A DNA stretch of 54,593 bases from Sedimenticola sp. (GTDB taxonomy: Bacteria > Pseudomonadota > Gammaproteobacteria > Chromatiales > Chromatiaceae): positions 1 to 54,593 of the forward strand of contig DRKS01000075.1 of the NCBI GenBank assembly GCA_011051655.1, given 5' to 3'. The position numbers and the translations under genes are program-made. Below, in pieces: positions 11,524 through 41,268 of this stretch. The stretch's first letter is position 1. Every line of letters starts with the position of its first letter. Below the pieces are notes generated by a model. It saw only the letters and a list, made by a program, of their open reading frames with translations. It had not been told where the DNA came from and made no database searches.

Positions 11524-12630
11524 GTGGGTATGCCAATGAATTATTCAGATTGCAGGGCGCTCCTTCATGGCTGGCGTTGGGGTATTATGGCGCTGGCGGT
11601 CGGAATCCTGGGGCTTGCGGGCTGCGATACAGCGCCCAAAAAACCGAAGAAAGAGCCTGTCGATATAGTATGGCCGGCGCCCCCGGAACAGCCCAGGATC
11701 CGTTATTTGGCGTCCTATCGGGGGCAGGTTGATTTTGCGGTCACTGATGATCTTCGGGCGAAACTGTTTGGCATAGAAGTGCAGGGGATTCACCTCGCGA
11801 AGCCGTATGGTGTGGCGGTGAACCCGGATGGCAGCAAAATGTATGTGACGGATGCCAAGGTTGGCGGGGTCGTGGTGTTTGATTTTAAGAAAAAGAAGGT
11901 TTCCATGATGCCGACTGATGCCATGGGCGCGGTAAGATCACCGGTTGAGGTGCGCGTCGACAGCCGTGGGCGTGTCTATGTGACTGATGGCTTTGGACAT
12001 AAACTGAACGTCTATGCTCCAAATGGAAAAACATTGTTTTCCATCGGCGGTGCTCAGCGCATAAAACGGCCAACCGGACTGGCGTTGGATGAGGCGCGTA
12101 ATCAGTTGTACGTAAGCGATACCCCCAATCACCGTGTCCTGACCTATGATCTGAATGGGAATTTCATTCGTGAGATAGGGGGGCGAGGCAATGATCCCGG
12201 CAAGTTCAACTTCCCCATCAACCTTGCGGTGGATAAGAACAACGGCCGGCTTTATGTGACAGACAGTGGCAACTTCAGGATACAGGCCTTTTCCCCGGAG
12301 GGTGAATATGTGACGGAGTTTGGCCAAATTGGTGACAGCTTTGGAAGTTTTGCCCGGCCAAAAGGGGTTGGCGTGGACAGTGAGGGCCATATTTATGTGC
12401 TGGACGCCGCCTTCAGTAATCTCCAGATTTTCAATGATGAAGGCAGGCTGCTTTTGTTTGTAGGCGCCTTGGGGCGTGGGCCGGGATTTTTCTGGCTGCC
12501 TGCGGGGATTTATATCGATTCCAGGGACCGGATTTATGTGGCGGATTCCATAAATCAGCGGATCCAGGTGTTTCAATACTTGAAAGAAGGGGAAGGAATC
12601 TCCCAGAAATCCAAGCAAGATATGCATTGA
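11524..12630 (+). CDS. NHL-repeat beta-propeller lipoprotein
   Basis: About 368 residues. A lipobox (LGLAGC near residue 34) ends the signal sequence, so the protein is lipid-anchored. The mature part begins with a VWPAPPEQPRIRYLAS segment and then about six NHL repeats (patterns such as VDSRGRVYVTDGFGHK and LYVTDSGNFRIQAFSPEGE), predicted to form a six-bladed propeller. It is a close paralogue of the protein at 28982-30034: both share the VWPxxPxxPRIRY start and the end FW.PAG.YID.....VADS. The start may be GTG 11524, ATG 11530 or ATG 11536. Genes for NHL proteins recur next to multiheme cytochromes in EET clusters; a docking or scaffold role is inferred. It opens the EET island and precedes the four-haem cytochrome by about 165 bp. 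Confidence 0.85.
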   Translation: MGMPMNYSDCRALLHGWRWGIMALAVGILGLAGCDTAPKKPKKEPVDIVWPAPPEQPRIRYLASYRGQVDFAVTDDLRAKLFGIEVQGIHLAKPYGVAVNPDGSKMYVTDAKVGGVVVFDFKKKKVSMMPTDAMGAVRSPVEVRVDSRGRVYVTDGFGHKLNVYAPNGKTLFSIGGAQRIKRPTGLALDEARNQLYVSDTPNHRVLTYDLNGNFIREIGGRGNDPGKFNFPINLAVDKNNGRLYVTDSGNFRIQAFSPEGEYVTEFGQIGDSFGSFARPKGVGVDSEGHIYVLDAAFSNLQIFNDEGRLLLFVGALGRGPGFFWLPAGIYIDSRDRIYVADSINQRIQVFQYLKEGEGISQKSKQDMH

Positions 12631-12795
12631 ACTGCTTGAAAAAACAATTAGATAGCGACTTTCCTGGAAGAAAGCCAAGGGGAGAAAATTCTAGCGAAAA
12701 CCTAAGCTGCGTGCTAAAGTAAGGGGCAAGATCAGCCTTAGTTGGCGCGTAGTAGGTTAGGTTGATGTACCTTATTCTGTTATAAACGGAGGGCT

Positions 12796-13533
12796 ATGAT
12801 GCGAAATTATCAATCTTCACTGGCTTTAGGAGGCATGGCGATTGCGCTCTCGGTGCTTGGCACGGCCCATGCGGGTATTGCGAATACCAAGCACAATCTG
12901 TCTACCTCGCATATTGGCTCATCGCGGTTTTATACGGATACGACCGAGATATGCCTTTTCTGTCATACCCCTCATATGACGGTGGCCAAGAGTGATAATA
13001 TTCCATTGTGGAATCACCAGATCAGCTCTACCGTCTCCACTTACGGCACCTATACCAGCGGCTCCTTCAATGGCGCGGGAACCATACACGATGTGGGTGG
13101 CGCCACTTCCCCGGCTAACGCAACGGTAACCAATCTTTGCCTCTCATGCCATGACGGTACGACAGCGGTCAATGCCCTCTATAATGCCTCGAATCTGTCC
13201 GGCAATGTGAATCCAAGCGTTGCAGGTAATACCCCGGCTGACGGCAAACTGGGTGCAACCTGGGCCTCGAATTTGGGCACTGACCTCACCAACGATCATC
13301 CGGTCAATTTTACCTACGATAATGCATTGTTTGCGGCCGATGGGGACTTGCATGATCCGCAGGACACCGCGGGTACGGGCTTGGGCGGGCCGAAGCTGTT
13401 TAACGGTACGGTTCAGTGTGCCTCCTGCCATGATCCGCATATTGACTATAGTGGCGCCAACAGTGCACAAACGCCATTCCTGCGCGTTGCCATCACAGGC
13501 AGTACCTTGTGTCTGAAGTGCCACAACAAGTAA
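12796..13533 (+). CDS. Secreted tetrahaem cytochrome c (doubled-CXXCH family)
   Basis: 245 residues with a signal peptide ending GTAHA. Four CXXCH motifs are present: CLFCH, CLSCH, CASCH and CLKCH. The N-terminal signature TKHNLSTS followed by EICLFCHTPH and PLWN, and the LTNDHPVNFTY block, are shared with the proteins at 26160 and 30031, making a paralogous family. From memory the pattern and haem number recall OmcE-type cytochromes that polymerise into extracellular filaments in Geobacter; this needs structural comparison. GGAGGG lies just before the ATG. A strong terminator follows, so this is the end of a transcription unit with the NHL gene. Confidence 0.9.
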   Translation: MMRNYQSSLALGGMAIALSVLGTAHAGIANTKHNLSTSHIGSSRFYTDTTEICLFCHTPHMTVAKSDNIPLWNHQISSTVSTYGTYTSGSFNGAGTIHDVGGATSPANATVTNLCLSCHDGTTAVNALYNASNLSGNVNPSVAGNTPADGKLGATWASNLGTDLTNDHPVNFTYDNALFAADGDLHDPQDTAGTGLGGPKLFNGTVQCASCHDPHIDYSGANSAQTPFLRVAITGSTLCLKCHNK

Positions 13534-13564
13534 AAACTCACCCGTAAGGGCCTGAGGCCGATGA

Positions 13565-13597
13565 AGAGGGGGGGCAGCAATGCCCCCTCTTTTTTTA
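13565..13597 (+). terminator. Rho-independent terminator after the tetrahaem gene
   Basis: Stem agaggggg / ccccctct with a ten-base loop is followed by seven T, about 30 bases past the stop codon at 13533. This separates the NHL-tetrahaem pair from the barrel operon. Confidence 0.85.
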
Positions 13598-13782: not shown

Positions 13783-13908
13783 GTGAAATCAGACATCGGG
13801 TGGGGCGGGGTTCGCCTGAGTGATAGGAACGGCAGCACTGAGAATAAGATTAATCTTGCGAGGGTGGTCTTGGCCCCTTTGAGCCAGATTTTCTACGGAT
13901 TCCCATGA
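13783..13908 (+). CDS. Putative 41-residue leader ORF coupled to the barrel gene
   Basis: A GTG at 13783 follows AAGGAGGA by nine bases, the strongest ribosome site in this stretch, and opens a 41-codon frame ending FYGFP-stop. Its stop TGA overlaps the barrel ATG in an ATGA arrangement (13905-13908). The barrel gene itself has only a weak site (tacgga), so translation may reach it by coupling from this small ORF. The peptide has no recognised domain. It may be a regulatory leader, or chance. It lies in the 371-base stretch between 13534 and 13904, which otherwise holds only the terminator. Confidence 0.45.
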   Translation: MKSDIGWGGVRLSDRNGSTENKINLARVVLAPLSQIFYGFP

Positions 13909-15662
13909 GATATGCCGGCAAACCGGTGCTTGTCGTGCTGGTGTTCCTATTTTGTGTGGTTGTTTTTTTTCCTGCGTTCGCTTCGCTTCGGGATTACGGG
14001 ATCTATATGTCTGGCATAAACGGCTCTACGGCGCTGCGGCTTGAGGATAAGATACGCAAGACCAATGGCGTTAAAACAAAGGTCAGGAGATGGGTCTCGC
14101 GCACCAACGCTAGGACCAAAGGGTTTATCTGGGATCCGCGTTTTATGAATTTTGAGGGCGGCCTATCCTATTTGACCAATAAAAGTGAGACTGACAGCGG
14201 CGATGTGGACAGTTCGACCCTTGGATTCAATGTAGCAGCCACCCTTTTTCCAAGATGGCGCTACCCTTACCGGCCAATCAATCTGTTCGCCAACAGATCC
14301 ATGAGTACAGTGGACGCTATTGATGGGGATACCCAGGAGATAACCAGCACGCTTTTTGGCGTGCGCTGGGGGCTTAGCCATAAGCTGTTTGGGCGGATAC
14401 GCACATCTTATGATGGGCAACTGCTGGAGTCGACGGGTGGTCTGGCTGATCGGGACGAGTTGCGACAGCGCTTTAAAGTCAGAGCGAACAGGGAATTTCG
14501 CAAGGGCCAATGGGGGGAATCAAAATTAAACTATGGCTACGAATTTGAATACTGGGATGCAAAGCAGGAAAATACTTCCTTCCTGCAAAATTATTTATTT
14601 GCCCGCAATTTTACAAGATTTGGACAAAGGACAGAATTGGCGACCGATGCCAGTTTCTATCAGCGCACCAACGACACGGGAGGGTCCGGAAACAGGGATG
14701 ATGATTCAATATTCTTCTCGGCATCCGCAAAGCTGGACATCAACCAAACTGATAACTTCCATCATTTCTATCGGCTGGGGATGAGCCGGAATGATTCATT
14801 TGGTGTGGTAACCACGAATTATAATGAGGCGGCGGGGCTTCGATATGATTATCGGCATACCTTTGATAAACAGTGGCATGGTTTGGTCACGTCCAATGCG
14901 ACGGCCTCATTCTCACAGAGTTCGCCGGGTGATTCAGCTTCACGGGGGGATGCAAATGTTACCGGCACCCTAAATTATGGGAATACCTTTGGTGATTTTT
15001 TAGTCAACGGCAGTTACGTATTGGGGGTATCCTCGCCTGTTTGGGATAGTTACAACAGTGACCGGGGTTCCACTATCAGCCAATTGGCAACCATCCGGTA
15101 CAGGCGCCAAAACAATCCCTTATATGCGGACATGGCGCGTCTGGAGCTTGCCTCGACCTATGGTTATTACGAAACCCAGATGTATTCTCTGCGTTATGAG
15201 GTAACCAGTGCGCTTACGGGCAAGGACTGGCTGGAAGGCCGCTTGAATCACAGGATACGCCGCTCGGATAACGGCGACACAACAAGCAGTATTTCGGCGC
15301 GGGGCTGGTGGAACCACCGCTTCAGCAGCGTCAGTGAGGGGCGGATACAAATAGAGAGCCTGCTCAGCTCTACGGAGGATCGGGACCAGATGCGCAATGC
15401 TTTGGAAACGAGATATCGGACCAGGCTTTTCAGGCGCCGGAATCTGTACTTCTATATGCGGTTTCGCTGGGAGCAATTTTCTGAAGATGATCAGCCCGAT
15501 TCGGACAGGATGAGCGGAGCAGGAGGCTTGGTTTACGCCATTGGTAAGTTCCGGGCCACCCTGGATTATTACTACAGCAGTTTTGATAAGGGAAATGAGG
15601 CTAAAACGACGGATCAGCAAATCATGCTTGAGCTTAGACGTTCTTTTTCTCTGCGGCTGTAG
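13905..15662 (+). CDS. Outer-membrane beta-barrel of a porin-cytochrome conduit
   Basis: 585 residues with a strong signal peptide (VLVVLVFLFCVVVFFPAFA) and then a body of alternating amphipathic segments rich in Tyr, Phe, Arg, Asp, Ser and Thr, ending SFSLRL, all typical of a large outer-membrane beta-barrel. No haem motifs. In porin-cytochrome systems (MtrB, OmbB and the barrel of the ANME-partner conduits) such a barrel sheathes a multiheme cytochrome through the outer membrane. I cannot see direct homology to MtrB; the role is inferred from the surrounding multihaem genes. It is followed at 41 bp by the PQQ-type propeller. Start ATG 13905 overlaps the small upstream ORF. Confidence 0.8.
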   Translation: MRYAGKPVLVVLVFLFCVVVFFPAFASLRDYGIYMSGINGSTALRLEDKIRKTNGVKTKVRRWVSRTNARTKGFIWDPRFMNFEGGLSYLTNKSETDSGDVDSSTLGFNVAATLFPRWRYPYRPINLFANRSMSTVDAIDGDTQEITSTLFGVRWGLSHKLFGRIRTSYDGQLLESTGGLADRDELRQRFKVRANREFRKGQWGESKLNYGYEFEYWDAKQENTSFLQNYLFARNFTRFGQRTELATDASFYQRTNDTGGSGNRDDDSIFFSASAKLDINQTDNFHHFYRLGMSRNDSFGVVTTNYNEAAGLRYDYRHTFDKQWHGLVTSNATASFSQSSPGDSASRGDANVTGTLNYGNTFGDFLVNGSYVLGVSSPVWDSYNSDRGSTISQLATIRYRRQNNPLYADMARLELASTYGYYETQMYSLRYEVTSALTGKDWLEGRLNHRIRRSDNGDTTSSISARGWWNHRFSSVSEGRIQIESLLSSTEDRDQMRNALETRYRTRLFRRRNLYFYMRFRWEQFSEDDQPDSDRMSGAGGLVYAIGKFRATLDYYYSSFDKGNEAKTTDQQIMLELRRSFSLRL

Positions 15663-15703
15663 CATTAGAACCCTTCACGGATTGCTAAGATTGGATTGAA
15701 AAA

Positions 15704-16816
15704 ATGCAATATGCCAGACAGTATCTGCCCCCCTTGCTATTAGTGGTGTTGATGGCATTGGGGGCAGGGGCCCCTGCCGCAGACTGGCCAATGCTTGGCG
15801 GTGGGCCACAGCACCAGTCACACAGCAGTGATCCCGTTCCACTGAATCCGGAAGCAAAGTGGCAAGTAAAAGCCGCCCGGCGATTTTACGCCTCCCCCTT
15901 GGTGGTGGGGCAGCATGTTTATGTGGCGGCGCGAGGAAAACGCATCAAAGCGCTTGATGTCAAGGATGGATCGCTGGTATGGGAAACCTCTCTGGGAGGG
16001 ACCGTCTCTGCCACGCCGGCCATATCCGGGGATATCCTTGTTGCGGGTGCAAAAGATGGCGTTGTCACCGCTCTTAACAGGGTGAGTGGCGAAATCAAAT
16101 GGCAGTTGAAAACCGGCGGAAAGGTGCTTTCTCCGCCAGTCATTCTTGATGGTGTCGTCTTTGTCGGCTCCAATGATTTGTTTCTCTATGCCATTGATCT
16201 TGCTACCGGCAAGGTCCGCTGGCGCTATCTCGCCAAGGATTACAAGTACGGGGGCCTCTATGCGTCACCCGCGGTTGATGCCAAGCGGGTGTATATCGGT
16301 GGAAAAAATGGTGTTATGCATGCCATGGCCAGGGACTCGGGGCGTCCCAGCTGGAAAGCGGCGCTCGGCTCCTCGATCTATGCTGCGGCACTCATCGATG
16401 GAGACCGTCTCTATGTGGGCTCTTATGACCGGCACCTCTATGCTTTACGGACGAAAGACGGAGGAATTTTGTGGAAGGTGGAGCTGGATGATTGGCCCCA
16501 GGGGTCGCCCGTATTGTTGGATGGAGTGCTATATATCGCAAGCCGCAGTGGCATTTTGTACGGAATAGATGCTGGCAGAGGTACTGTCATGTGGCAATTG
16601 GACCTGGAGGAAGGGCTGCGCCATAGTCCTGTGCTGGGCTCTAACGGCATAGGCGTGATTGGCACGACAGGAGGCCGGTTGCTGGGAATTGACCTGAAAA
16701 AGCAGGAAATCCTGTGGGAAAGAGAGGTAGAAGGCGGGGTTTTTGGGTCAGTCGCTCTATCGGCGTATGGTCTGGTTGCCGTTACATTGGATGGGATTGT
16801 GGTTCTGATGCACTAA
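15704..16816 (+). CDS. PQQ-type beta-propeller exported protein
   Basis: 370 residues with a signal peptide ending APAADWPM, followed by about seven PQQ-like (Trp-docking) propeller repeats. Examples are the ALDVKDGSLVWETSLGG, ALNRVSGEIKWQLKTGG and AIDLATGKVRWRY segments at regular ~40-residue spacing. It resembles BamB/YncE-like scaffold propellers more than a full quinoprotein dehydrogenase: it is short, and no calcium-binding or vicinal-Cys features of PQQ enzymes are seen. It lies between the barrel and the octahaem cytochrome genes, so a periplasmic assembly or docking role for the conduit is plausible. A catalytic quinoprotein cannot be excluded. Confidence 0.8.
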   Translation: MQYARQYLPPLLLVVLMALGAGAPAADWPMLGGGPQHQSHSSDPVPLNPEAKWQVKAARRFYASPLVVGQHVYVAARGKRIKALDVKDGSLVWETSLGGTVSATPAISGDILVAGAKDGVVTALNRVSGEIKWQLKTGGKVLSPPVILDGVVFVGSNDLFLYAIDLATGKVRWRYLAKDYKYGGLYASPAVDAKRVYIGGKNGVMHAMARDSGRPSWKAALGSSIYAAALIDGDRLYVGSYDRHLYALRTKDGGILWKVELDDWPQGSPVLLDGVLYIASRSGILYGIDAGRGTVMWQLDLEEGLRHSPVLGSNGIGVIGTTGGRLLGIDLKKQEILWEREVEGGVFGSVALSAYGLVAVTLDGIVVLMH

Positions 16817-17108
16817 GGATGGCGGCGGGACCGGCCTGTGGCAGAGCGGTGCATCGGGCAACGGCAGGTATAGCGTAACAGTCTGATTTCACAGTCGAAT
16901 AGGCTGTACGCCCATATCTTTTTACGATTCCCCTCGCAAATTTCCTATAGCTAGACGGATCAAAAGCTTGTATCATGCGCCGCAATTCCGCACGGCCCCT
17001 GTGGTAATGAGAGGCGGCTTTTTGATAAACGTGTGTTGATCGGCCATAAAATCAAACAGTTATGGGCTGCATCGACATAAAAGGCGGTTGTTCAAAATAC
17101 GGGGAAGA

Positions 17109-18125
17109 ATGGTGAAGGTTCGCCTTTTGGCCGCAGCACTGATCGGGCTTGCCGGATTCACTCATTCGGTAGCCGTGGCTGCTTCTGATGGCGGGCCCTA
17201 CACTGCCGAGGCGTTGTTGGAAAATCCGGATAAGATCCTGTCCCTGCTGGCTGAGGGGGTGATCGAATTCGAGCAGGTTCCAAATCCCCATTGGCGGACC
17301 GATGCCTGCAATGCCTGCCATATGGGGGCGGCGGCAGCGGGGGGAAAGATGCCGCCGCTTCGGACTGAGGATATTGACGGGCTCTGTGGCAACTGTCACG
17401 ACCCTTCCATGGTGGCCGAGTATATCCATGCTGTCGGCATGGAGCCGCCGGATGAGTTCCTGGACCGTATGCCGGATGATTTTTTGGCGGCGCTGGAGCG
17501 CGGGGGGCAGGTGATAACGTGCATCATGTGTCACGATCTGCCGCTTCAGTGTGAAGAGAAGCGATTCCCGCAGCAGGAGATCAACCCCTTTTTCTTTCGG
17601 GGTGGCCCCTACACAGAGCGTACGGATTTGTGTTTCAACTGCCACGATCCGGAAGATTATGAAAGGTACAACCCTCATGATCAGGTCACGGATGAAGGGG
17701 AACTGGATACGGAGCAATGCTTTTTTTGCCATAACACCACGCCGAACCGCACCGTGGTGCGCAGCATCGACGATGTCAGCTTCAATGTGGCGGAAGAGTT
17801 GGAGAAGCTCTGCACAGGATGCCATCCGTACCAGCCTCATCCGGGGGGCTCATGGTTCAGTTCCACGGGCAACAGGGAAGGCGGGGGACCAAACCATTTA
17901 AAGGTTCCGCCGGAAAAGATCCGGCGGCGTATGGAAAAAATGGTTAGAGAAACCGGTGCTGTGATGCCGCTCGAGCCTGAAACGGGCCGCATTTTCTGCG
18001 CCACTTGTCATAACCCCCATGAGCGGGGAGTGCAGTATTACCCGCGGGCCGATGTGGGCGCAGACGGTTACAAGCGTCTGCGGCGGGGAAAATTTGAAAT
18101 ATGCATGGCCTGTCATGATCTTTAG
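17109..18125 (+). CDS. Periplasmic octahaem cytochrome c
   Basis: 338 residues from ATG 17109, chosen because GGGGAAGA precedes it and a compact signal peptide follows (VRLLAAALIGLAGF..AVAA); a TTG at 17088 is in frame but unlikely. Eight CXXCH motifs: CNACH, CGNCH, CIMCH, CFNCH, CFFCH, CTGCH, CATCH and CMACH. No membrane anchor is visible, so it should be a soluble periplasmic protein or an outer-membrane-conduit partner. It is the first of a run of inner-membrane and periplasmic electron-transfer genes (17-21.7 kb) and is 28 bp ahead of the anchored cytochrome gene. It does not look like octahaem tetrathionate reductase or hydroxylamine oxidoreductase: the catalytic motifs are not seen. Confidence 0.85.
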   Translation: MVKVRLLAAALIGLAGFTHSVAVAASDGGPYTAEALLENPDKILSLLAEGVIEFEQVPNPHWRTDACNACHMGAAAAGGKMPPLRTEDIDGLCGNCHDPSMVAEYIHAVGMEPPDEFLDRMPDDFLAALERGGQVITCIMCHDLPLQCEEKRFPQQEINPFFFRGGPYTERTDLCFNCHDPEDYERYNPHDQVTDEGELDTEQCFFCHNTTPNRTVVRSIDDVSFNVAEELEKLCTGCHPYQPHPGGSWFSSTGNREGGGPNHLKVPPEKIRRRMEKMVRETGAVMPLEPETGRIFCATCHNPHERGVQYYPRADVGADGYKRLRRGKFEICMACHDL

Positions 18126-18153: not shown

Positions 18154-19266
18154 ATGGTATTGCCCATGATTAGAATAAGGTTGATGGTGTGCGTCTTTTT
18201 GGTCGCCTTCAGTCTGCCCTCGATATCCTTGGCATTCGTGGATGACGAGGCTTGTTTGATGTGTCACAAGTACCCAAAGATGGGGCGGGTCACCGAAGAG
18301 GGGTTTCAGAAGGCATATTACGTAATGCCGGAGGTGTTTTCGAAAACCGTGCATCGCAACGTGCCCTGCCGCGATTGCCATTATTACATCAAGGAACTGC
18401 CCCATCGTCCGGTGACGGAAGGTGTGCGCTGCGACCGGGAATGCCATTCGATCAAAAATCCATCGACCGGCAAGCCCTTCAGCCATAAACCCATCTATGA
18501 CACCTTCAAGAAGAGCGTCCATGGGCGCGAAAAAATCGAGACGGGCCTGGATAACGACAAACCTTATTGCATCACCTGTCACACCAACCCTCTCTACAAC
18601 GAGGCGGAAGAAGCCCCACCCAAGCGCATCATCGACCGCTGCGTGGTTTGTCATGAAGATTCAAAATTCGCAAACAAATGGTACAACCACACCAGCCGCC
18701 GTATCCGGGAGGTAAGGCGCAGTTCCCAGGAAATCATTGCCCTGTGTTCCCGTTGTCACGCCGATGAAGAGATGCTGGAGCGGCATAAAGAAGCGGCCGA
18801 CAAAGAAGGGAGGGAGATCGGCGCGAAGTACGTTATCGCTGCCGAATCATACAATAAAAGTTTTCATGGCAAAGTGACCAAGTATGGTAACAGCGAGGCG
18901 GCCAACTGCCTGAACTGTCACGCCTCGCCAGAAAACTACTATATGAGCGTCCATGAGTTGAGGCCTTCCCGGGACCCGCTGTCGCCTGTCAACAAGAACA
19001 ATCGGGTAAAGACCTGCAGACAGTGTCACAAGACCGCCGATGAGAATTATGCGGCCATCGACCCCCATCCCACCCATGAGAAGGAACTCAACAAGTTCAA
19101 TTATTACGCTGAGATAATCTATGGCATCGTGGGTGATGCCGCGCTGATAGCCCTGGTAGGCATGGCGCTGTTCGAAACCATTGGGCGCAAGCGTGACGGA
19201 ATTGCCTGGGTGTTGCGCAATGGTACGACCTGGCGCCGCCGTAGCCGCCGGCGCCGTAAAAAGTAA
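18154..19266 (+). CDS. Membrane-anchored octahaem cytochrome c with one CX3CH
   Basis: 370 residues: signal peptide (LMVCVFLVAFSLPSISLA), a periplasmic cytochrome domain, and a C-terminal transmembrane helix (about residues 317-340, IVGDAALIALVGMALFE) followed by a very basic cytoplasmic tail (RRRSRRRRKK). Seven canonical motifs are present (CLMCH, CRDCH, CITCH, CVVCH, CSRCH, CLNCH, CRQCH), plus CDRECH, a CX3CH site near residue 93. The layout (N-out, C-anchor) and position next to a cytochrome b gene fit a quinol-dehydrogenase module that passes electrons to periplasmic cytochromes. Alternative start at ATG 18166. It differs from NapC/NirT, which have an N-terminal anchor. Confidence 0.85.
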   Translation: MVLPMIRIRLMVCVFLVAFSLPSISLAFVDDEACLMCHKYPKMGRVTEEGFQKAYYVMPEVFSKTVHRNVPCRDCHYYIKELPHRPVTEGVRCDRECHSIKNPSTGKPFSHKPIYDTFKKSVHGREKIETGLDNDKPYCITCHTNPLYNEAEEAPPKRIIDRCVVCHEDSKFANKWYNHTSRRIREVRRSSQEIIALCSRCHADEEMLERHKEAADKEGREIGAKYVIAAESYNKSFHGKVTKYGNSEAANCLNCHASPENYYMSVHELRPSRDPLSPVNKNNRVKTCRQCHKTADENYAAIDPHPTHEKELNKFNYYAEIIYGIVGDAALIALVGMALFETIGRKRDGIAWVLRNGTTWRRRSRRRRKK

Positions 19267-22746: not shown

Positions 22747-22748
22747 TC

Positions 22749-28710: not shown

Positions 28711-28820
28711 CAAAGGTCCCCCTGCCGGTCTGGATCTGGCCTGTCTGTCATTGTAGCTGTCGGCTTGAGGGGATATTTGAAGCGGTCGGCTGCCCGTGTC
28801 AGCGGTTCAGGACGGTTAAT

Positions 28821-28836: not shown

Positions 28837-28981
28837 TAATTCACTAATGCCCTGTTTATAACTCAATGCGGCTAAAGAATCCCTGTTTCGGGACGAGTAA
28901 ATGATGACTGGGTTTTTTTCTGTCGTTCAAGGCGTGGCGGGCCGCGGCAGAGCGGGATTGGCGTTACTACGAGGGGTGCAG

Positions 28982-33452: not shown

Positions 33453-34216
33453 ATACCGTGCCCTTGCTCCAGGGGGCCGCCGCGGCTGCCTACCTCGGGG
33501 CGGCCGGCCTGTTGGGCGCCGGATCCCGCCGGCGCCGGTTGGCCGCCGCGGGCGTCGTGCTGGCGGCAGGCGGTTTCTGCGTGCATCTGTTTGTCTTGGT
33601 TTGGCGCTGGCTGGAAATCGGCAAGCTTCCCATCGTCACCCGCTATGAAGACATGACGGTGGATGCCCTGGCGGTGGCGGGGGTCTATCTGCTGGCCCAA
33701 TGGCGCCGGCCGTTGCTGCGTCCGGCGGGAATAGGGGTGCTGCCCCTGGCGGCGGCCGCCTTGAGTGCCGCCTTGTGGTACAACCTGGGCAGCTTTCCCT
33801 GGACACCTGCCCTGCGCACCAATTGGCTGGTGATCCACTCCCAGTTGAACAGCCTGGCCATCGGCATCGCCACCCTCACCGCGGCCGCTTCGCTGTTGCC
33901 CCAGGGTGATGAGAAGACCAGGATAGTGGGCCGCCTGCTGGCCTGGACCTTTTTCCTGTGGACGGCGATGGTGGCCGCCGGCTCCTACTGGGCGAGCCTG
34001 GCGTGGGGGCGCTATTGGGGCTGGGATCCCATTGAAAGCTGGTCCCTCGTGACCCTGCTGGGCTATGCCTTCGTTCTGCACCTGCGGCTCAAACCCGCCT
34101 GGCGGGGGCGCGGCGGCGACCTGCTGGGGCTGGTCCCCTATGCCATGATGCTGTTTACCACCTATGGGCTGTTGCTGGTCATGAGAAGCGTCCACGGCCG
34201 CTACCTCTTCCTGTAG
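33449..34216 (+). CDS. ccsA: CcsA/ResC haem handling protein (System II)
   Basis: 255 residues and about eight hydrophobic helices. The haem-handling WWD motif is intact (WGRYWGWDPIESWSL near residue 192), and conserved histidines occur at CVHLF near 48, VIHSQLN near 130 and near VLHLRL. This is the partner of ResB in System II cytochrome c biogenesis. The start overlaps the resB stop (ATGA at 33449-33452), so both are co-translated. Its presence inside a multihaem gene island suggests a maturation system dedicated to these cytochromes, as with NrfI/CcsBA variants elsewhere; many gammaproteobacteria use System I (Ccm) instead. Confidence 0.85.
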   Translation: MNTVPLLQGAAAAAYLGAAGLLGAGSRRRRLAAAGVVLAAGGFCVHLFVLVWRWLEIGKLPIVTRYEDMTVDALAVAGVYLLAQWRRPLLRPAGIGVLPLAAAALSAALWYNLGSFPWTPALRTNWLVIHSQLNSLAIGIATLTAAASLLPQGDEKTRIVGRLLAWTFFLWTAMVAAGSYWASLAWGRYWGWDPIESWSLVTLLGYAFVLHLRLKPAWRGRGGDLLGLVPYAMMLFTTYGLLLVMRSVHGRYLFL

Positions 34217-34373
34217 GGAAACACGCCCGCGCAGGCACCGCGGGGCGGCGCCCGATTTGACAGTCAAGTTATTCTCCAGGCTACCGATCTACCAGGGCAT
34301 ATGGGCAGTGCGGGCTGATTTGCCGCATGTTAACATTCAACATTTTTTTGCGGCGGGTTTCAGGAGCTTGAGA

Positions 34374-35066
34374 ATGGCGGTGCAGACTTTGAACAGTCAA
34401 TCGTGGGGTGTGGTTTTGGTGGCGGCATTGATGGCCTCTTCGCTGGGGGGCTGTGACCGGGGCCCCGGGGAGGAAGCAAAGGCTCCCGCCTCAGGCGGTG
34501 AAACGAAAGCCCCGGGGGTGATTAGCGGGACCGAGCAACTGCCGCCAGGCCACCCGCCGCTCGAGGGCCTGCAGGCGCCCGCCCCCCTCGGCGGGAATAT
34601 GCCCGCCGATCATCCGCCCCTGCCCGGGGCGGCGGACGGCGCCCAGCCGCGCCCGGCCGACGAGCCCGATCATCCTCCGAGCTCGGGCAAGGAGCTCGAT
34701 GTCTCCATACCTGATGGGGTCGAGGGGAAGTGGTCTGCCGTGAAGCTGGAAGTGACCATGCCCGATGGCGGCAAACAGGAGATCCGGGCCGTTTTGGGTG
34801 AGGAAACTCAATTGGCCGACAGCGGTCTGACCTTACGCGCCGAGATATTCCTGCCCTCGTACATCAGTGACTTCAAGACCATCACGAGCGCCTCGAATGA
34901 TCTTGTCAATCCGGCGGTAAAGGTCCGGCTGATGGAAAGTCAGAAAGACGTGGCGGTGGGTTGGCTGTTCCAGAATCTGCCCGAGTTCAACAGCTTCGAA
35001 AGCGACAGGGTGGAGCTTCGGTTATTATCGGCCGAGGGCGCCGAAACGGCCGGGGACAGCCGGTAA
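34374..35066 (+). CDS. DUF2155 lipoprotein
   Basis: 230 residues from ATG 34374 (AGGAG upstream). Lipobox SSLGGC near residue 27. A Pro/Gly-rich linker follows with three HPP units (PPGHPPLEG, PADHPPLPG, PDHPPSSG), then a C-terminal DUF2155-like domain (about residues 120-220, including SGLTLRAEIFLPSYISDF). DUF2155 proteins are exported proteins of unknown function with no catalytic motif I can see. Location between the maturation genes and a large secreted unknown suggests an accessory to the cytochrome system. Confidence 0.75.
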   Translation: MAVQTLNSQSWGVVLVAALMASSLGGCDRGPGEEAKAPASGGETKAPGVISGTEQLPPGHPPLEGLQAPAPLGGNMPADHPPLPGAADGAQPRPADEPDHPPSSGKELDVSIPDGVEGKWSAVKLEVTMPDGGKQEIRAVLGEETQLADSGLTLRAEIFLPSYISDFKTITSASNDLVNPAVKVRLMESQKDVAVGWLFQNLPEFNSFESDRVELRLLSAEGAETAGDSR

Positions 35067-35101
35067 CTCCAGATCAGATATCATCCAGGGTTGATAGATT
35101 T

Positions 35102-36856
35102 ATGAAGAAACCTTATCAGGCCTTGTTGTCCATACTGTTTTTTTTCCTTTTGGCGGGATTTCTGACCGGGGTGCAGGCCGCCCCAAAGGCAAAGTCCGTT
35201 GATCAGGATCCCGGCGTGCTCTCTATCCGGCTGCAACGGTCGCTGCTCGGATACGACGTGAATATGCTGGAGAAGCACGTCATCGACTTCTATTTTTCGC
35301 CCGTGCACGCCATGTCGGTATACCGGGAGTTGTTGCAATGGGCCGGGGCCAATCCCAAGGAAAAGGCGGTGCGGGATGATGTTGTCGCCATGGTGCGTGA
35401 AGGCATGGTGGCGGTAATACGTGATTCCGGGGCCGGACTGGCGCTGCCCGGCTGGGATGGTCCGGGGCAGCCGATCAGCATGGCCTACGCCTTGAGCCTG
35501 CCGCGCTATGCCCAAAAACCTGATTTCAACAACCCGGCAACGCTGAAATGGAGACGCAGCGACGGGGATAAAAGGGTGGTGACCCCGGGTTCCATCGGCC
35601 AGTCCATGGCGGCAAAGGCGCTGTTGATTCGTATCGACCGGTCTGAAGCGGGGAAGAGGAACGCCCCTCTCTTTCTGGCCTCCGTCCTCCAGGAGCTGGA
35701 GATATTGAGCAGCAGGCTGTTTCTGAAAGACCGCCTGGGGCCCGTCGCCAAGGGAGGCCATGTGCCGGAAATCATGGAGCCGGACGGCAAGGGGGGCTGG
35801 AAGGTCCTGGATCCGGCAAGCCGCCTGCCTTCACAGGCGTTCCTGTTGCAGGGGCTTTCACATCTCTACGGCTTGCTTTCAGCGAACGGCGTTATCAAGC
35901 CATTGCTTGGCGGCGGCAAGGTGCGGGGCAGAGAGTTGAAAGACTGGCTTGGGCTGACGCGCCGCACGCTGGATACGGTCTACGCATCCCTGATAGAGCG
36001 CCATTTTGATCCGGCTTCCGGCAGCTTTGCGAGTCACTACCAGCATGACAAAGGTCCAGGCGACCGCATTATGCTGGAGGATGCGAGTTACGTCGTCGGC
36101 GCCCTGGATGCGTTGCTCCACGTGTTGCCCGATAAGGATCCGCTGCACAAATCCGCACGCAGGCATCTCCTTTCGCAGGCCGGGTATATCAGGAAAATGC
36201 TGGGTTCGGGCAAACCCATTCCGCGGGGTTTCCTGCTGAAAAACGGGGCCCGCTTACGCAGCCTGATGCGGGATTTTTCCTATCCCGTCGCCGCCATGTC
36301 GGTGATGCTCACGGCGGAGGAAACCGCGGGTGACGGCAGTTACCGCGAAGTTGCGGCGAGGCTGTATGAATCTGAACACCCCGTTTTCTGGTCCAGGGAG
36401 AATGGTATCTATCGCGCGGCGGCGGGCGTAAAGGTATCGGCCTATGACGGCCTCTTCTTCAGCTCCGTTATGAGATGGTTGCGCCATATGGATCTGGTGT
36501 TTCCGGACAAAGACGATTTTGCCAAGCGCAGCCGTGATTTTATCCAGGTGGTATTGAAGGATGGGGGACTGCTCCAGAGCGAAGGTCCCGGCACGGGTGA
36601 GCCGAGATCGCTGGAGGATTTCATTCAAAAGGAGATCCCGGCCCTTGTGGAGAGGCTGGCGAAAACCGATGCCACGGAGCATGCCGCCCCTATTGACAAA
36701 TTTGTCAAGGATGCGGCCGATCAGGATAAGGACGGTGTTCCCGGATGCCGCTTTGGCGGCGGCGCCTATGGGGCTGCTCCGGTTATCATTATGCAGATCG
36801 GCGTGAACACATCATTTGCCTCGACGCCAGGCGGCCGCCCGGCATATGGTTTCTGA
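35102..36856 (+). CDS. Large secreted protein of unknown function
   Basis: 584 residues from ATG 35102, with a signal peptide (ALLSILFFFLLAGFLTGVQA). The rest is a helix-rich soluble protein with no CXXCH motif and only a single cysteine, near the C-terminus (DGVPGCRFGG). Repeated helical pairs with aromatic residues (e.g. GSFASHYQHD, MLEDASYVVGALDALL, FSYPVAAMSVMLTAEE) recall an alpha/alpha toroid, but I cannot assign a family. A DQDKDGVPG segment might bind calcium. It follows the DUF2155 gene by 35 bp and precedes a monohaem cytochrome, so it likely serves the EET island. Confidence 0.75.
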   Translation: MKKPYQALLSILFFFLLAGFLTGVQAAPKAKSVDQDPGVLSIRLQRSLLGYDVNMLEKHVIDFYFSPVHAMSVYRELLQWAGANPKEKAVRDDVVAMVREGMVAVIRDSGAGLALPGWDGPGQPISMAYALSLPRYAQKPDFNNPATLKWRRSDGDKRVVTPGSIGQSMAAKALLIRIDRSEAGKRNAPLFLASVLQELEILSSRLFLKDRLGPVAKGGHVPEIMEPDGKGGWKVLDPASRLPSQAFLLQGLSHLYGLLSANGVIKPLLGGGKVRGRELKDWLGLTRRTLDTVYASLIERHFDPASGSFASHYQHDKGPGDRIMLEDASYVVGALDALLHVLPDKDPLHKSARRHLLSQAGYIRKMLGSGKPIPRGFLLKNGARLRSLMRDFSYPVAAMSVMLTAEETAGDGSYREVAARLYESEHPVFWSRENGIYRAAAGVKVSAYDGLFFSSVMRWLRHMDLVFPDKDDFAKRSRDFIQVVLKDGGLLQSEGPGTGEPRSLEDFIQKEIPALVERLAKTDATEHAAPIDKFVKDAADQDKDGVPGCRFGGGAYGAAPVIIMQIGVNTSFASTPGGRPAYGF

Positions 36857-36911
36857 AACATTGATAGATGCTTCAGCCGGGTGGATAAACCCACTCGGCA
36901 GGGGGGATAAA

Positions 36912-37349
36912 ATGAAACGATGGTTATTGCTTGTTATGGCGGCATATCCTTTGGTGTGGAGCGGTCTTGCCGTGTCCAGCAGTGAGTTCGGCGATCCCGC
37001 CCGGGGCCGGGCGTTTTATTCTCAGCGCTGCGTCATGTGCCATGGATCGGACGGCCGCGGGCAAAATGGCATGGCCCCGAACTTTTTTGAAGAGTGGCAC
37101 CGGCTGACCAAAACGGATGAGGAACTGGCGGAGAACATCCGCAACGACTTCCGCACCCCGGAAAGATTCTACACCGCCGGCAGTTGTCCTCCCCATCGTT
37201 TCAATGATGAGGATATGGAGGATCTTCTGGCCTATCTGCGCCGGCTGACGGAGAACCGGCCGTCTGACTCTTTTGGATTCGACCGGCGGAATGATCTGGG
37301 CCGGCCGGATGATTTCGGCCGACCGGATGATTTCGGCCGTCCCTTCTGA
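36912..37349 (+). CDS. Monohaem class I cytochrome c with repeat tail
   Basis: 145 residues from ATG 36912 (AGGGGGG upstream; earlier in-frame Met codons lack this). Signal peptide, then a class I cytochrome domain with a single CVMCH near residue 42 and a likely distal ligand in the C-terminal half; its closing helix reads DMEDLLAYLRRL. The tail is unusual: two and a half copies of GRPDDF (DLGRPDDFGRPDDFGRPF), mirrored by an 18-bp tandem repeat in the DNA. It could be a small electron shuttle. Confidence 0.85.
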   Translation: MKRWLLLVMAAYPLVWSGLAVSSSEFGDPARGRAFYSQRCVMCHGSDGRGQNGMAPNFFEEWHRLTKTDEELAENIRNDFRTPERFYTAGSCPPHRFNDEDMEDLLAYLRRLTENRPSDSFGFDRRNDLGRPDDFGRPDDFGRPF

Positions 37350-37378
37350 TGTAGTCTCCCCTCACCGCAACAAGGGCC

Positions 37379-38845
37379 GTGGAAAATATCAAGTCTGCGT
37401 TGCCCGAGTGGCTCGCCAAGCGCTGGGAACCCATAGTCACCCTGGCGCTTGGCGTTTATTTTATCGCCCGGCTGTTCTATTTCGCCATGGGCATCGTTCC
37501 GGATCTGCCGCCGGATGAACACACCCATGTAGGACTCATCCGGCTCTACGCCGCCGCAAGTCCGCTGTTTATCACTGATACGCCGGCGTCGTTTCAGTTT
37601 GGTTTGGTCTCGTCCGTCCCCTACCTCTATCACTACCTCATGGGGGCGGCGAGTGCGCTCACGGGCAACGACAGCTATCTGACCCTGCGTCTGTTCAATA
37701 TTCCGTTGGCCTTCTTGTTCCTGGTGGTTGCATACCGTCTTGCGCGTGAAGTCACGGCTAATCCGCTCGCCCGCATCTTGTTCTTTGTCATGCTCACCAA
37801 CACCCTCATGTCCAGTTTTTTATGGGCCTCGGTCAACTATGACAATCTGGTCAATCTTCTGGCGCTGTTATCGGTTTATTTTCTGGTGCGGCTGCTCTCT
37901 AGGGGCGCCACGACTTCATGCCTGTTGTTTCTGATCTGCATGGGGTTGGGGGCCCTGACCAAGGCCTCCTTTCTGCCTCTGGCGCTTCTGCTGATCCTGG
38001 TCTGGTTGACCGCGCGCAACAGGCTGTTGAAATCTGATTTCATATCACTCAGACAGCAAGTCATGGCAGGCAACAAACCCGTGATCGCCCTGCTGGTCCT
38101 GCTCGCCGGCTGCCTGTCCGCAAACCTGCTTCTGTATGGGAACAACATCGTCCGTTATGGACAAATCAAACCGGGCTGCAGCCAGGTTCTGGACCTGAAG
38201 AGTTGCATGGCCAACCGCATCTTTGCGCGGGGCTGGGTGCTGTCTCAGTATCGGGACAATAAGATTACCTTTGAGCAGGCCTGGAATATGGCCGGCCGTA
38301 TCTGGCATGCCGGTGACAGAGAGGCCACGCGGGTCATGCTGCAGAATGAACGGATGTTCAGGCTGAAAAAACCGGAGACCCTGAACTTCTATGATTATCT
38401 GAATGTTGTGTGGAATCAGGAGTTGAAGCCATCCATCTTCGGCATACTGGCGCATCGCTCAATGCTGCGTTCATCAGCAGAGCTTACTGCATATAACCTT
38501 ATTTTATTGGCTGGAATTATTTTCTTTATCAGGAATATCCGATTCGACCAACGGGACAGGGCATGGGGGATATTTGCCTTTGTTTGCCTGGGGTATTTTA
38601 TGTTGCTCTTGGCCTTTCACCATTATCCCGGTTACCTGGTGACGCACAATGTCTCCCTGGGAACACAAGGGAGATACTTGTTTGTCGTTATTGCGCCGGC
38701 GTATCTCTTGCTGTCTGAATTTCTATTGCGCAAGCTCAAAAAATGGATGCAGGTCCTGGTGGTAATACTGGTGGGATTCGTATTTATCAACGGAGATTTC
38801 CCTTATTTCCTGGAACATGTGCCGGCGTCCTGGCGCACGCAGTGA
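37379..38845 (+). CDS. GT-C/DUF2142-like polytopic membrane protein
   Basis: 488 residues with about ten transmembrane helices. The first periplasmic loop holds PDLPPDEHTHVGL near residue 46, reminiscent of the acidic motif of DUF2142 and PMT-type GT-C glycosyltransferases that use polyprenyl-linked sugars. No TPR domain. The start is a GTG at 37379 with AAGGG close upstream. It may act on a surface or secreted product of the island, together with the other GT-C protein at 26917-28710. Substrate unknown. Confidence 0.65.
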   Translation: MENIKSALPEWLAKRWEPIVTLALGVYFIARLFYFAMGIVPDLPPDEHTHVGLIRLYAAASPLFITDTPASFQFGLVSSVPYLYHYLMGAASALTGNDSYLTLRLFNIPLAFLFLVVAYRLAREVTANPLARILFFVMLTNTLMSSFLWASVNYDNLVNLLALLSVYFLVRLLSRGATTSCLLFLICMGLGALTKASFLPLALLLILVWLTARNRLLKSDFISLRQQVMAGNKPVIALLVLLAGCLSANLLLYGNNIVRYGQIKPGCSQVLDLKSCMANRIFARGWVLSQYRDNKITFEQAWNMAGRIWHAGDREATRVMLQNERMFRLKKPETLNFYDYLNVVWNQELKPSIFGILAHRSMLRSSAELTAYNLILLAGIIFFIRNIRFDQRDRAWGIFAFVCLGYFMLLLAFHHYPGYLVTHNVSLGTQGRYLFVVIAPAYLLLSEFLLRKLKKWMQVLVVILVGFVFINGDFPYFLEHVPASWRTQ

Positions 38846-39345
38846 AACAGCCTCGCCGGCTGGTGGTGAGGCGGCGTGTGAATTGCCCTGATTTTTCAGC
38901 CTGTTTTTCCCAATATCACAGTAGAGACCCGATGGGTTTTGGCCGCCGGAACCGGGTATGGTGCCGGTTTGGAATAGTTGACTGCCCAGCTTGGTCATGA
39001 TAGAAGGATTGACGTGGATCAAAGGCTTGCTGTGCAAATAGTGTTGAGATCGGCACCGGTAGGAGTACATAGCCGGTTGGTTGATTGGGCTTGACCACAG
39101 GCCGATTGTTGGCCAGGGGCATGGATGGCCCGGTTATGTGCCTGATAATAATAGCAATTGATGCCCGTGGCGCGGCCCAAGGCGGTGAACATGGTTGAGG
39201 AGGAGGCCATGTTGGGCGGGAGTGCCGGTTATTGCAATGCTTTTTATTCGCCATCCTTCAGGAATGAATTCGATTTCAGCGGTATACATTGGGATTCAGG
39301 ATGCCGGGATTTAAGTTGGGCGAAACAATAACGAGAGGAAATACA
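38846..39345. other. Gene-free stretch, possibly degenerate
   Basis: About 500 bases without a supportable gene. Two minus-strand frames (38723-39070 and 39019-39210) read into each other with a frame shift and have fairly normal composition, so a decayed coding sequence or insertion remnant is possible. I recognise no domain. The triheme gene that follows has its own AGAGGAAA ribosome site. Confidence 0.4.
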
Positions 39346-39696
39346 ATGGTCCGTAAAAGCTTGTTAGTCATGTCGTTGGCATTGGTCTTTATCCTCGGCG
39401 GAGCCTCGAACGCTTTTGCCCGGGAATATGCCGACATCTATATGGATTCTACCCGCGACAGCATGGAAAAGGCTGATGTCAAAGCAGTACTGTTTCCTCA
39501 TTGGTTTCATCGCATTCGGTTCAAATGCAAGGTGTGCCATGAAGATATCTTCAAAATGAAAAGGGGGAGCAACAATATCTCTATGCGCCGGATCATGGAA
39601 GGTGAGGCCTGCGGCGTTTGCCATAATGGCCAGATTGCGTGGGAGGCCCTCTATTGCGAGCGCTGCCATTCTACAGAATTTGAGCCAAGGCAGTAG
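39346..39696 (+). CDS. Periplasmic trihaem c7-type cytochrome
   Basis: 116 residues from ATG 39346 (GAGAGGAAA upstream). Signal peptide ending NAFA. The c7-type triheme domain shows FPHWFHRIRFKCKVCHEDIF, EACGVCHNG and CERCH (three CXXCH) plus histidines suited for bis-His ligation. It is the smallest of three tandem paralogues (39346, 39709, 40591) that share the FPH...C..CH...M..I..G..CG.CH...C.RCH layout. These should shuttle electrons across the periplasm. Confidence 0.9.
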   Translation: MVRKSLLVMSLALVFILGGASNAFAREYADIYMDSTRDSMEKADVKAVLFPHWFHRIRFKCKVCHEDIFKMKRGSNNISMRRIMEGEACGVCHNGQIAWEALYCERCHSTEFEPRQ

Positions 39697-39708
39697 GAGG
39701 ATGACATA

Positions 39709-40572
39709 ATGAAAATAAACAAGACATGTACGGGGCTCTTTCCGATTGCTGTGCTGCTGCTTCCTCTGGCCCTTGTCAGTTGTAAAGCCGCAGACACCCA
39801 GGTTCAACCGCAGTCATCGACTGAAGCCGGGGCTTCCGCCACCGCCAAAAAGGCGCCGGCACCCAAAAAGGCCGCCGAGCCGAAGAAGCCGGCAACCACG
39901 GTAACGAAACTGGCGAAGGCACAGGTACAGCCGGACAAGGCGCCGGCGCCCGCAGCCGGTCCCGCGCCGGCGAAGGTTGCCGCCGCACCGCCACCGTCAC
40001 CACCGCCAAGCCCCAAAAAGCCCAAGGCGGCACCGAAAAAAGCCAAATCCCCCTATGGGCCGGATGATCCCCGGAGTTCGATCTATCTGAGTATCACCGG
40101 CAAAATGGCGGGCATGGGGGACCCGAATAAAGCGGTGTCGGATGCGTATCGCATCGGAATGGGCGAGCACCCTGAGGCCCTGGCCAGCGCGGCCCTGCCA
40201 AAGGACAAGTTTGGCCTGATCGACTGGATCGCCCTGGTGGATCAAAAAATCATCGATCCAAAAGAGTCGCTGAAGCCCGGGGCCCCGGTAATACCCCCGT
40301 TCGACATGAATGTTCTCATCCCGGCCAAAGGGGATTTCGTCAATGACGTACTTTTCCCTCATAAGGCCCATACCTATTGGCTCAAGTGCGAAAACTGCCA
40401 TACCGGCATTTTCATCATGGCCAAGGGCAAGAACAACATGACCATGCAGGGTATCACCAAGGGCAAGTGGTGTGGCAGGTGTCATGGCAAGGTTTCCTTC
40501 CCATTGACCGATTGCGCCCGCTGCCATAATTCACCCAAGAAAGGTTCGGGACAGGCCGTAACCAAGAAATAG
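39709..40572 (+). CDS. Trihaem c7-type lipoprotein with long flexible linker
   Basis: 287 residues. Lipobox LALVSC near residue 25, then about 90 residues of Ala/Pro/Lys-rich linker (e.g. PAPKKAAEPKKPATT), a middle domain (PKDKFGLIDWIALVDQ near 165) and a C-terminal triheme domain with CENCH, CGRCH and CARCH. AGGAGG precedes the ATG. The TonB-like linker could let a lipid-anchored haem domain reach across the periplasm. The middle domain is shared with the next gene's product (PKDRFGMVNWTKAVTD), not with the first paralogue. Confidence 0.88.
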   Translation: MKINKTCTGLFPIAVLLLPLALVSCKAADTQVQPQSSTEAGASATAKKAPAPKKAAEPKKPATTVTKLAKAQVQPDKAPAPAAGPAPAKVAAAPPPSPPPSPKKPKAAPKKAKSPYGPDDPRSSIYLSITGKMAGMGDPNKAVSDAYRIGMGEHPEALASAALPKDKFGLIDWIALVDQKIIDPKESLKPGAPVIPPFDMNVLIPAKGDFVNDVLFPHKAHTYWLKCENCHTGIFIMAKGKNNMTMQGITKGKWCGRCHGKVSFPLTDCARCHNSPKKGSGQAVTKK

Positions 40573-40590
40573 CTGTGAGAGTAGTACACC

Positions 40591-41268
40591 ATGCCCCTTG
40601 AAAGGTCTGGGGCCGCAAGAAAAGCGTTTTTCCTGGGACGCTTGGCATTCATAACACTGCTCTGTTGGCAGTCGCAGCAAACGTACGCGGAGGCGCCCGA
40701 AAATTCGGGCGCCTCCGCGCCTGTCTGCGCCAAGGAATTGAAGTCTCACTGTAATGCCACCCAGGAACAGATGCTGCGGGAGCTTCTGCGGGAACTCAAA
40801 ATCTTCAGCACCCCCGGCTATCTCAGTCCTTTTAAAGGAGAAGGCGGGATTATAGGGGATGCGCCCGCCCTCGAATTGTTGCCGAAGGACAGGTTCGGCA
40901 TGGTGAATTGGACAAAGGCCGTGACCGACGGCCTGATCCGGCCCAGGGACAACCTGGCGGGAGAGCCGGAGGAACCCTATGAAGGGTTTTATGACAACAT
41001 CATCCTGTTTCAGGCCAACGTCTTTCTAATGGCCGATGTGGCCTTCCCCCATGGCATGCATACCTATTGGATCAGCTGTGACAGTTGCCACCCCGAGCCC
41101 TTCAAGAAAAAAATAGGGAGCACCACCGGCATGAACATGAAGGGGATAGAGCAGGGAAAATGGTGCGGCAAATGCCATGGCAAGGTCTCTTTTCCCGCCA
41201 GCACCTACATGAACTGCCGACGCTGCCACTCGATTACCAAGGAATCGCTGAGCAAGGAGCCTTATTGA
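40591..41268 (+). CDS. Periplasmic trihaem c7-type cytochrome with middle domain
   Basis: 225 residues. N-terminal export signal (LAFITLLCWQSQQTYA), a short helical segment, the PKDRFG...W middle domain near residue 97, and the triheme domain with CDSCH, CGKCH and CRRCH at the C-terminus. Paralogue of the preceding lipoprotein but without lipobox-plus-linker. The DNA just after the signal peptide holds a perfect 16-bp inverted repeat. A terminator follows the stop. Confidence 0.88.
   Translation: MPLERSGAARKAFFLGRLAFITLLCWQSQQTYAEAPENSGASAPVCAKELKSHCNATQEQMLRELLRELKIFSTPGYLSPFKGEGGIIGDAPALELLPKDRFGMVNWTKAVTDGLIRPRDNLAGEPEEPYEGFYDNIILFQANVFLMADVAFPHGMHTYWISCDSCHPEPFKKKIGSTTGMNMKGIEQGKWCGKCHGKVSFPASTYMNCRRCHSITKESLSKEPY
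40686..40719 (+). repeat. Perfect 16-bp hairpin inside the triheme coding region
   Basis: Positions 40686-40701 and 40704-40719 are exact reverse complements with a two-base loop (arms begin cgcggaggcgcccgaa). It lies at the signal peptide/mature junction of the 40591 gene. Such a GC-rich stem could slow ribosomes or act as an attenuator. Confidence 0.85.

Follow-up and report, generated by a model that had tools for sequence, protein, structure and literature searches.

A Uet-like porin-cytochrome cluster with OmcE homologues and a candidate quinone module in Sedimenticola sp.

Gene content of the island

The window analysed here is a stretch of 54,593 nucleotides from Sedimenticola sp. (contig DRKS01000075.1), and this study concerns the block of multihaem cytochrome genes at 11524-41268. 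The data suggest that the block is probably a trans-envelope electron conduit resembling the undecahaem (Uet) porin-cytochrome cluster, with an inner-membrane quinone module of its own. Support for a conduit comes from gene content, homology, conservation of haem motifs and histidines, synteny and co-occurrence.

The island comprises 22 plus-strand genes and one minus-strand gene (26917-28713). The plus-strand genes hold 72 CXXCH motifs, and shuffling of residues gave a mean of 0.13 and a maximum of 2 (500 shuffles). From 5' to 3' the cytochrome genes carry 4, 8, 7, 3, 24, 5, 11, 1, 3, 3 and 3 motifs. There is a single CX3CH motif, C93-xxx-C97-H98, in the gene at 18154-19266 (c8b), and all 18 aligned sequences, that of the window among them, have it. 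An earlier note on this DNA had reported eleven cytochromes with 72 CXXCH and one CX3CH, and these counts bear it out. Pfam likewise agrees with that note on three NHL propellers, a PQQ/BamB-type propeller, a b561-type cytochrome b and the System II maturation genes ResB and CcsA, and it also identifies a monohaem cytochrome and three c7-type trihaem proteins. There was no Pfam match for the putative barrel or for the genes at 34257 and 34961.

Several genes overlap. The gene for the second propeller (NHL2, 21802-22746; Pfam NHL, 5e-33) runs into that of the 24-haem cytochrome (c24, 22743-25817), the third propeller (NHL3, 28901-30034; Pfam NHL, 4e-30) shares 4 bases with the undecahaem gene (c11, 30031-32151), c11 overlaps ResB (32133-33452; Pfam ResB, 3e-25) and ResB overlaps CcsA (33392-34216; Cytochrom_C_asm, 1e-16). 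Parts of the island are therefore probably operons.

Relationship to Uet and other conduits

Passages of a Gallionellaceae pangenome study (PMC10734462) describe Uet as an undecahaem cytochrome (UetJ), a tetrahaem cytochrome (UetA), trihaem proteins (UetDEG), an isomerase (UetB), NHL proteins (UetHI) and a barrel (UetC), and a review lists uetABCDEFGHIJ in Tenderiales (PMC12575090, in the part available). In locus L043 of our collection, c4 is followed by an isomerase (Pfam PPIC), a barrel-family protein, a pair of trihaem proteins, one other protein, a third trihaem protein, two NHL proteins, c11, ResB and CcsA. The UetJ-like c11 of the window, with 11 CXXCH, aligns with 13 relatives from its class and has the haem motifs in common with them, a comparison made through these relatives. 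The families of the UetA-like tetrahaem c4 (12796-13533) and of the UetC-like putative outer-membrane porin (barrel, 13905-15662) match the Uet-ordered loci L036 and L043. The trihaem proteins of these loci match three c7-type proteins of the island: tri1 (39289-39696; Cytochrome_C7, 2e-14), a predicted carrier; tri2 (39709-40572; 1e-11), which has a lipobox-like start; and tri3 (40591-41268; 7e-11). NHL proteins are also present in the island, as judged by Pfam and by comparison with the same loci; NHL1 (11524-12630; Pfam NHL, 5e-37) has a lipobox-like start (LAGC at residue 31) and a 53% relative at the same position in a Thiobacillus metagenome-assembled genome (MAG).

On its gene content, the island is thus a variant of the Uet cluster. 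It is not a strict member, because it lacks the isomerase as well as a protein in the UetF position. With Uet of Tenderiales and Gallionella the island shares the undecahaem and tetrahaem cytochromes, the barrel, three trihaem proteins and two NHL proteins. In contrast with Uet, the trihaem genes lie apart from the core and no prolyl isomerase was found, and a six-gene quinone and 24-haem module, a pentahaem cytochrome (c5), a PQQ-type propeller and a third NHL protein are added.

The earlier note had likened the island to porin-cytochrome conduits of Geobacter and of ANME-partner bacteria (Oet-type). A porin-cytochrome conduit for extracellular electron transfer is well supported, but the gene set matches Uet and not Oet. 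In the passages available, Oet of ANME-partner sulfate reducers is built on a 16-haem and a 26-haem cytochrome with the porin OetI, whereas the largest cytochromes here have 24 and 11 haems; the Oet core also has an isomerase. The two share the porin-cytochrome logic and beta-propeller proteins. A point that might favour the Oet parallel is that a paper on SEEP-SRB1 mentions, in the part available, a further operon whose cytochromes have 11 or 12 haems and are related to OmcX.

PCC3 of Sideroxydans, Leptothrix and others, as described in the passages available, combines a barrel with a b-type protein of the inner membrane and a periplasmic cytochrome that has 21-27 haems; by that description the island, with its putative barrel, c24 and cytochrome b, resembles it. 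The PCC3 inner-membrane protein is defined by two WX3HX13H motifs and SGXXG. The cytochrome b of the island (cytb) has neither WX3HX13H nor SGXXG and has one HX13H. Neither large cytochrome qualifies as the DmsE-type decahaem MtrA/MtoA of Mtr and Mto, since c11 scores 40.5 and c24 71.6 bits against a TIGR03508 cut-off of 192.2. By description, CbcL and CbcBA of Geobacter are similar in linking quinone to periplasmic cytochromes through b- and c-type parts; in the island this link is split over three separate proteins.

The barrel family

The earlier note's barrel is upheld in part: the family recurs beside c11 and there is weak strand periodicity, but neither Pfam nor the Protein Data Bank (PDB) provides a match. 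A profile of the window protein and five relatives brought in 21 more ORFs on the first pass (E 0.01), and 84 rows with duplicates after iteration, including ORFs adjoining c11 elsewhere. Against the PDB the family profile had no match up to E 1, and a scan of the genome collection with the barrel sequence alone gave none either. A barrel search in 38 genomes, the window's own included, matched only the own genome, and one in 14 chosen genomes matched five at E 1e-33 or better.

An alignment search of the genome collection with c11 confirmed at least 569 places, from which the best 80 were kept. Many of the kept loci end early on their contig, so the 40 loci of at least 20 kb were counted separately. 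The barrel family adjoins c11 in 60/80 loci, and in 34 of the 40 long ones. The cytochromes could instead be periplasmic electron stores or soluble enzymes beside an unrelated porin, for which it might speak that several proteins resemble NrfB, NrfH and octahaem families weakly and below cut-off; this is very improbable, given the barrel family next to c11 in most loci long enough to include it and that Pfam and NCBIfam scans of the island found no catalytic family above cut-off.

The quinone module and the 24-haem protein

Six genes of the island recur together as a module: c8, c8b, cytb, c3TM, NHL2 and c24. The octahaem c8 (17088-18125) has a signal-like N-terminus and relatives at 37-57% that also have 8 motifs. 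The product of c8b is an 8-haem protein (7 CXXCH plus CX3CH) with a predicted C-terminal membrane anchor (hydropathy, residues 321-339), and the residues of all its haem motifs are conserved throughout the 18-sequence alignment, the last motif being CX4CH in distant rows. The trihaem c3TM (20580-21665) has N-terminal helices by hydropathy and keeps its 3 CXXCH in 15/15 sequences.

The product of cytb (19360-20397) is an FdnI-like cytochrome b with a putative quinone site. Ten near relatives show 65-74% identity to it, and 17/17 sequences have seven histidines in common, two of which lie 13 residues apart. The only PDB match of cytb is FdnI (1KQF_C, 3e-5), and a formate-dehydrogenase-gamma match (1e-11) is below cut-off. 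Using a threshold of E 1e-40, cytb was found in 8/274 genomes of the window's class, the window included, and all eight also have a c11 match. The two genes are within about 11 kb of each other on the same contig in six of the eight; in G233 and G121 they are on different contigs. A divergent c8b-cytb-c3TM set lies near the main module in L048, L049/L138, L134, L140, L031 and L152, with a c8b of 6 CXXCH whose last motif is CX4CH in the aligned rows.

Two other proteins with similarity to ExtP/b6 were seen in the own genome. On contig 3 (L164:5625-8198), a cytochrome b with sub-cut-off similarity to ExtP/b6 adjoins an octahaem cytochrome weakly like hydrazine dehydrogenase. On contig 44 (L156:11598-13190), a protein resembles ExtP/cytochrome b6 in one part and, in an iron-sulfur part, HdrA2, each match falling short of its cut-off.

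The 24 CXXCH of c24 are matched in relatives at 44-56%. A haem spacing of 38/30/54/43 recurs about four times along the protein, and 5/6 of its 18-haem relatives skip stretches that hold six motifs. Comparison of c24 with itself by BLAST gave no repeat pairs, so that the repeat is one of haem spacing. Both the spacing repeat and the skipped six-motif stretches suggest that c24 is possibly a periplasmic wire of variable length. The own genome encodes another 24-haem protein elsewhere (contig 77, L177:10770-13793), which has 38% identity to c24, and G233 (L178) has a similar 24-haem protein adjoined by NHL, c8 and PQQ-type relatives.

Homology to OmcE

In single-sequence searches of the PDB, OmcE, the nanowire protein of Geobacter (7TFS), was matched by c4 (4e-32, residues 7-245), by c5 (26160-26906; 2e-28, residues 13-248) and by c11 (8e-27, residues 8-231). 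A profile of c11 and its 13 relatives matched 7TFS at 6e-53, 9YUQ at 3e-38 and, weakly, OmcS (1e-5). These alignments make c4 and c5 homologues of OmcE, and likewise the N-terminal part of c11. The homology covers the whole tetrahaem protein in the case of c4; c4 and c5 can be aligned with OmcE of Geobacter sulfurreducens almost end to end and c11 to residue 231.

We compared histidines in 78 rows, made up of 75 c4-type proteins from 66 loci (similarity above 70 bits) and three window sequences. The only histidines outside the haem motifs kept at 99% or more are c4 H33 (77/78), H60 (77/78), H168 (78/78) and H215 (78/78); the next best reaches 71%. All four align with OmcE histidines in the alignment of c4 with 7TFS. 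As four haems need four such ligands, c4, c5 and the c11 domain each have the full set of distal histidines. Unlike OmcE, c11 bears seven more haems and c5 one more.

These results bear on a possible filament. To our knowledge, how cytochrome nanowires connect to the cell is an open question. We tentatively suggest, as a proposal that is more doubtful than the conduit itself, that c11 is a filament base in which an OmcE-type domain is fused to a seven-haem stem in the barrel. The filament would grow from the conduit through a ligand-sharing contact of the kind between subunits, and together with the quinone module and the 24-haem wire a chain of haems would run without a break from the quinone pool out to the tip of the filament. 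Such a block, in which a relative of OmcE, a barrel and a quinone module stand with a conduit cytochrome that has an OmcE-like domain, would turn the join between nanowire and cell into a concrete interface.

There is a chance not far short of even, on the other hand, that the conduit is real and c4 and c5 are single terminal surface cytochromes that form no polymer; c11 would then share no more than a fold with OmcE in its OmcE-like domain. Homology is no proof of polymerisation, the four histidines could all bind haems of the same chain, and c5 has an extra haem motif. OmcE, however, takes one haem ligand from the next subunit, according to the passages available on it, and the family keeps the whole histidine set.

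In the literature available in part, a Geoalkalibacter locus that combines an OmcE homologue with a quinol cytochrome and two NHL proteins has already been reported (PMC12016550). The passages of open-licence literature on OmcE and on Uet or undecahaem systems that we surveyed contain no link between the two. Both the OmcE homology of c4, c5 and the c11 N-terminus and the six-gene module that accompanies c11 go beyond those passages.

OmcE is reported to be heavily glycosylated in part of PMC9473688. The gene at 37379-38845 (PMT_2, 6e-10) codes for a predicted GT-C type glycosyltransferase, and it is speculation that glycosylation of OmcE-type proteins might give it a purpose. The earlier note had counted two GT-C proteins; this one stands, and the minus-strand gene at 26917-28713 falls, as its multi-helix product has TPR repeats as its only Pfam match and no glycosyltransferase match in Pfam or NCBIfam. 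A 42% relative of it adjoins c4 in L044. In another genome, a protein with TPR repeats and glycosyltransferase family 41 similarity (L039:12596-14782) lies directly upstream of c11. The PMT_2 gene and the L039 protein hint at glycosylation genes near c11.

Relatives, synteny and phylogeny

Among the 80 places kept, out of at least 569, the four best relatives of c11 are from Ca. Polarisedimenticolaceae, Sulfurimicrobium (two) and Thiobacillus. The contig of the Thiobacillus MAG keeps the order of the window, NHL1-c4-barrel-PQQ-c8-c8b-cytb-c3TM-NHL2-c24-NHL3-c11-ResB-CcsA, without c5 and the minus-strand gene. The Sulfurimicrobium contigs have the same genes partly rearranged, with a divergent second c8b-cytb-c3TM set in between. 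The Polarisedimenticolaceae stretches have relatives of barrel, c4, c5, NHL and c11, and their module is only a divergent one (c8b 38%).

In the kept loci c11 has 11 CXXCH in 75 cases and 10 in five. At least one NHL gene resembling NHL1 or NHL3 occurs in 80/80 loci, and a c4-type protein in 51/80, or 35/40 of the long loci. A c11 match (E 1e-10) was found in 37/274 genomes of the window's class, a count that includes partial matches and c4-type paralogues; the occurrence in a proteobacterium, to which the earlier note had pointed, is thus not surprising in itself.

A c11 tree of 95 rows (quick IQ-TREE run, SH-aLRT support only) includes labels from Thermodesulfobacteriota, Nitrospirota, Verrucomicrobiota, Planctomycetota, Bacteroidota and Myxococcota. 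The window falls in a clade of six rows (support 99), five of which are module carriers, and the other carriers lie within a separate group of 12 rows and at L090. For 14 carriers and 39 non-carriers, the carrier state needs four changes, three of them forced by strongly supported branches. This count leaves out 42 rows, among them L047, L079, L094, L111 and L121; L047 was left out because the examined stretches of its genome have only the divergent module (c8b 38%). A single gain with two losses could account for three changes, and transfer of the module is therefore not demonstrated. Elsewhere in the tree, a group formed by L056, L070, L071, L083 and L088, four of five from Myxococcota, has a PQQ-type propeller, a 4-haem c8-like protein, NHL, c11, a 4-haem and a 6-haem protein in a row.

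Proposed electron path and its direction

We propose that electrons would pass between the quinone pool and the FdnI-like cytb with the membrane-anchored 8-haem c8b and trihaem c3TM. Then c8 and c24 would cross the periplasm, aided by the small trihaem carriers, and c11 would cross the outer membrane in or at the barrel. Outside, a cytochrome filament built or terminated by the OmcE-type proteins (c4, perhaps c5) would make contact with c11 at its OmcE-like domain. The cytochromes would be matured by ResB and CcsA, and the propellers probably aid assembly. We infer the cell locations, the order of transfer, the assembly, the formation and docking of the filament and the propeller role. The suggested order, from quinone through b/c module, 24-haem protein and c11 in the barrel to the OmcE-like filament, could run either way. 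The module would offer the Uet conduit a candidate inner-membrane partner, and through paths of this kind cells can exchange electrons with electrodes or minerals.

Several observations weigh against this proposal. A plain hydropathy scan of cytb marked one helix only, and c24-type proteins (E 1e-25) occur in 12/274 class genomes, four of which are outside the cytb set. Pfam gave no rotamase match among the scanned island genes for the prolyl isomerase UetB, which is present in L036 and L043. The tri1-3 genes sit about 7 kb (at least 5 kb) downstream of c11, and trihaem genes were not seen in the Thiobacillus contig. The strand-periodicity test of the barrel was weak (21 peaks; shuffles gave a mean of 14.7, sd 2.5 and a maximum of 22 in 300), giving the topology weak support, and the barrel profile was iterated and can drift. 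Polymerisation, finally, is drawn from homology to OmcE.

As to direction, the view of the earlier note that oxidation of a donor and reduction of an acceptor cannot be told apart from sequence remains true. Two directions are open to the conduit, and we hold each to be possible at somewhat less than even chances. In the outward direction, organic matter would be respired and quinol electrons placed on a solid or extracellular acceptor. The own genome, estimated to be 95.8% complete, has no RuBisCO match, with other carbon fixation routes outside the search, and no DsrA over cut-off, the one weak match scoring 56 against 393 bits. A cave metagenome paper, in the part available, applies this argument to such clusters where the MAG has no carbon fixation, and it refers to the undecahaem cytochrome of a manganese reducer; OmcE itself serves Fe(III) oxide reduction according to the passages available. 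Against the outward direction, Uet was described in a cathode-oxidising organism (PMC10734462, PMC12575090, both in part).

In the inward direction, the electrons would come from a cathode, from Fe(II) or from another mineral and pass to the quinone pool and then to oxygen or nitrogen oxides. Passages of the same two papers propose electron uptake for Uet of Tenderiales and Gallionella. The closest named relatives among the best 80 of at least 569 are the Thiobacillus and Sulfurimicrobium MAGs. Both genera are known as lithotrophs. The own genome has four COX1-family matches, and five to molybdopterin enzymes; the lack of a RuBisCO match speaks against the inward direction. Overall, the RuBisCO, DsrA, COX1 and molybdopterin searches lean away from Calvin-cycle autotrophy and do not decide between uptake and export.

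Other genes of the window

The PQQ/BamB-type propeller (15704-16816; PQQ_2, 3e-46) has relatives at 46-50% that adjoin the barrel. The own genome also has the System I gene CcmF elsewhere, so ResB and CcsA, which adjoin c11, make up a second maturation system, perhaps a dedicated one.

Downstream of CcsA there are two conserved proteins with no Pfam or NCBIfam match, whose true starts may be further in: one at 34257-35066 (34-38% relatives) and one at 34961-36856 (38-39% relatives), the relatives lying in three named loci. These two genes and c1 (36816-37349), which codes for a monohaem cytochrome c (Cytochrom_C, 5e-11), recur together in three of the four best relatives. A U32-family protein at 43669-44664 (Pfam) would fit the ubiquinone genes that the earlier note placed nearby. 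Finally, at 51089-53506 there are two adjoining proteins with FGE-sulfatase (formylglycine-enzyme-like) domains and CXXCH, one of which has a cbb3-type cytochrome domain.

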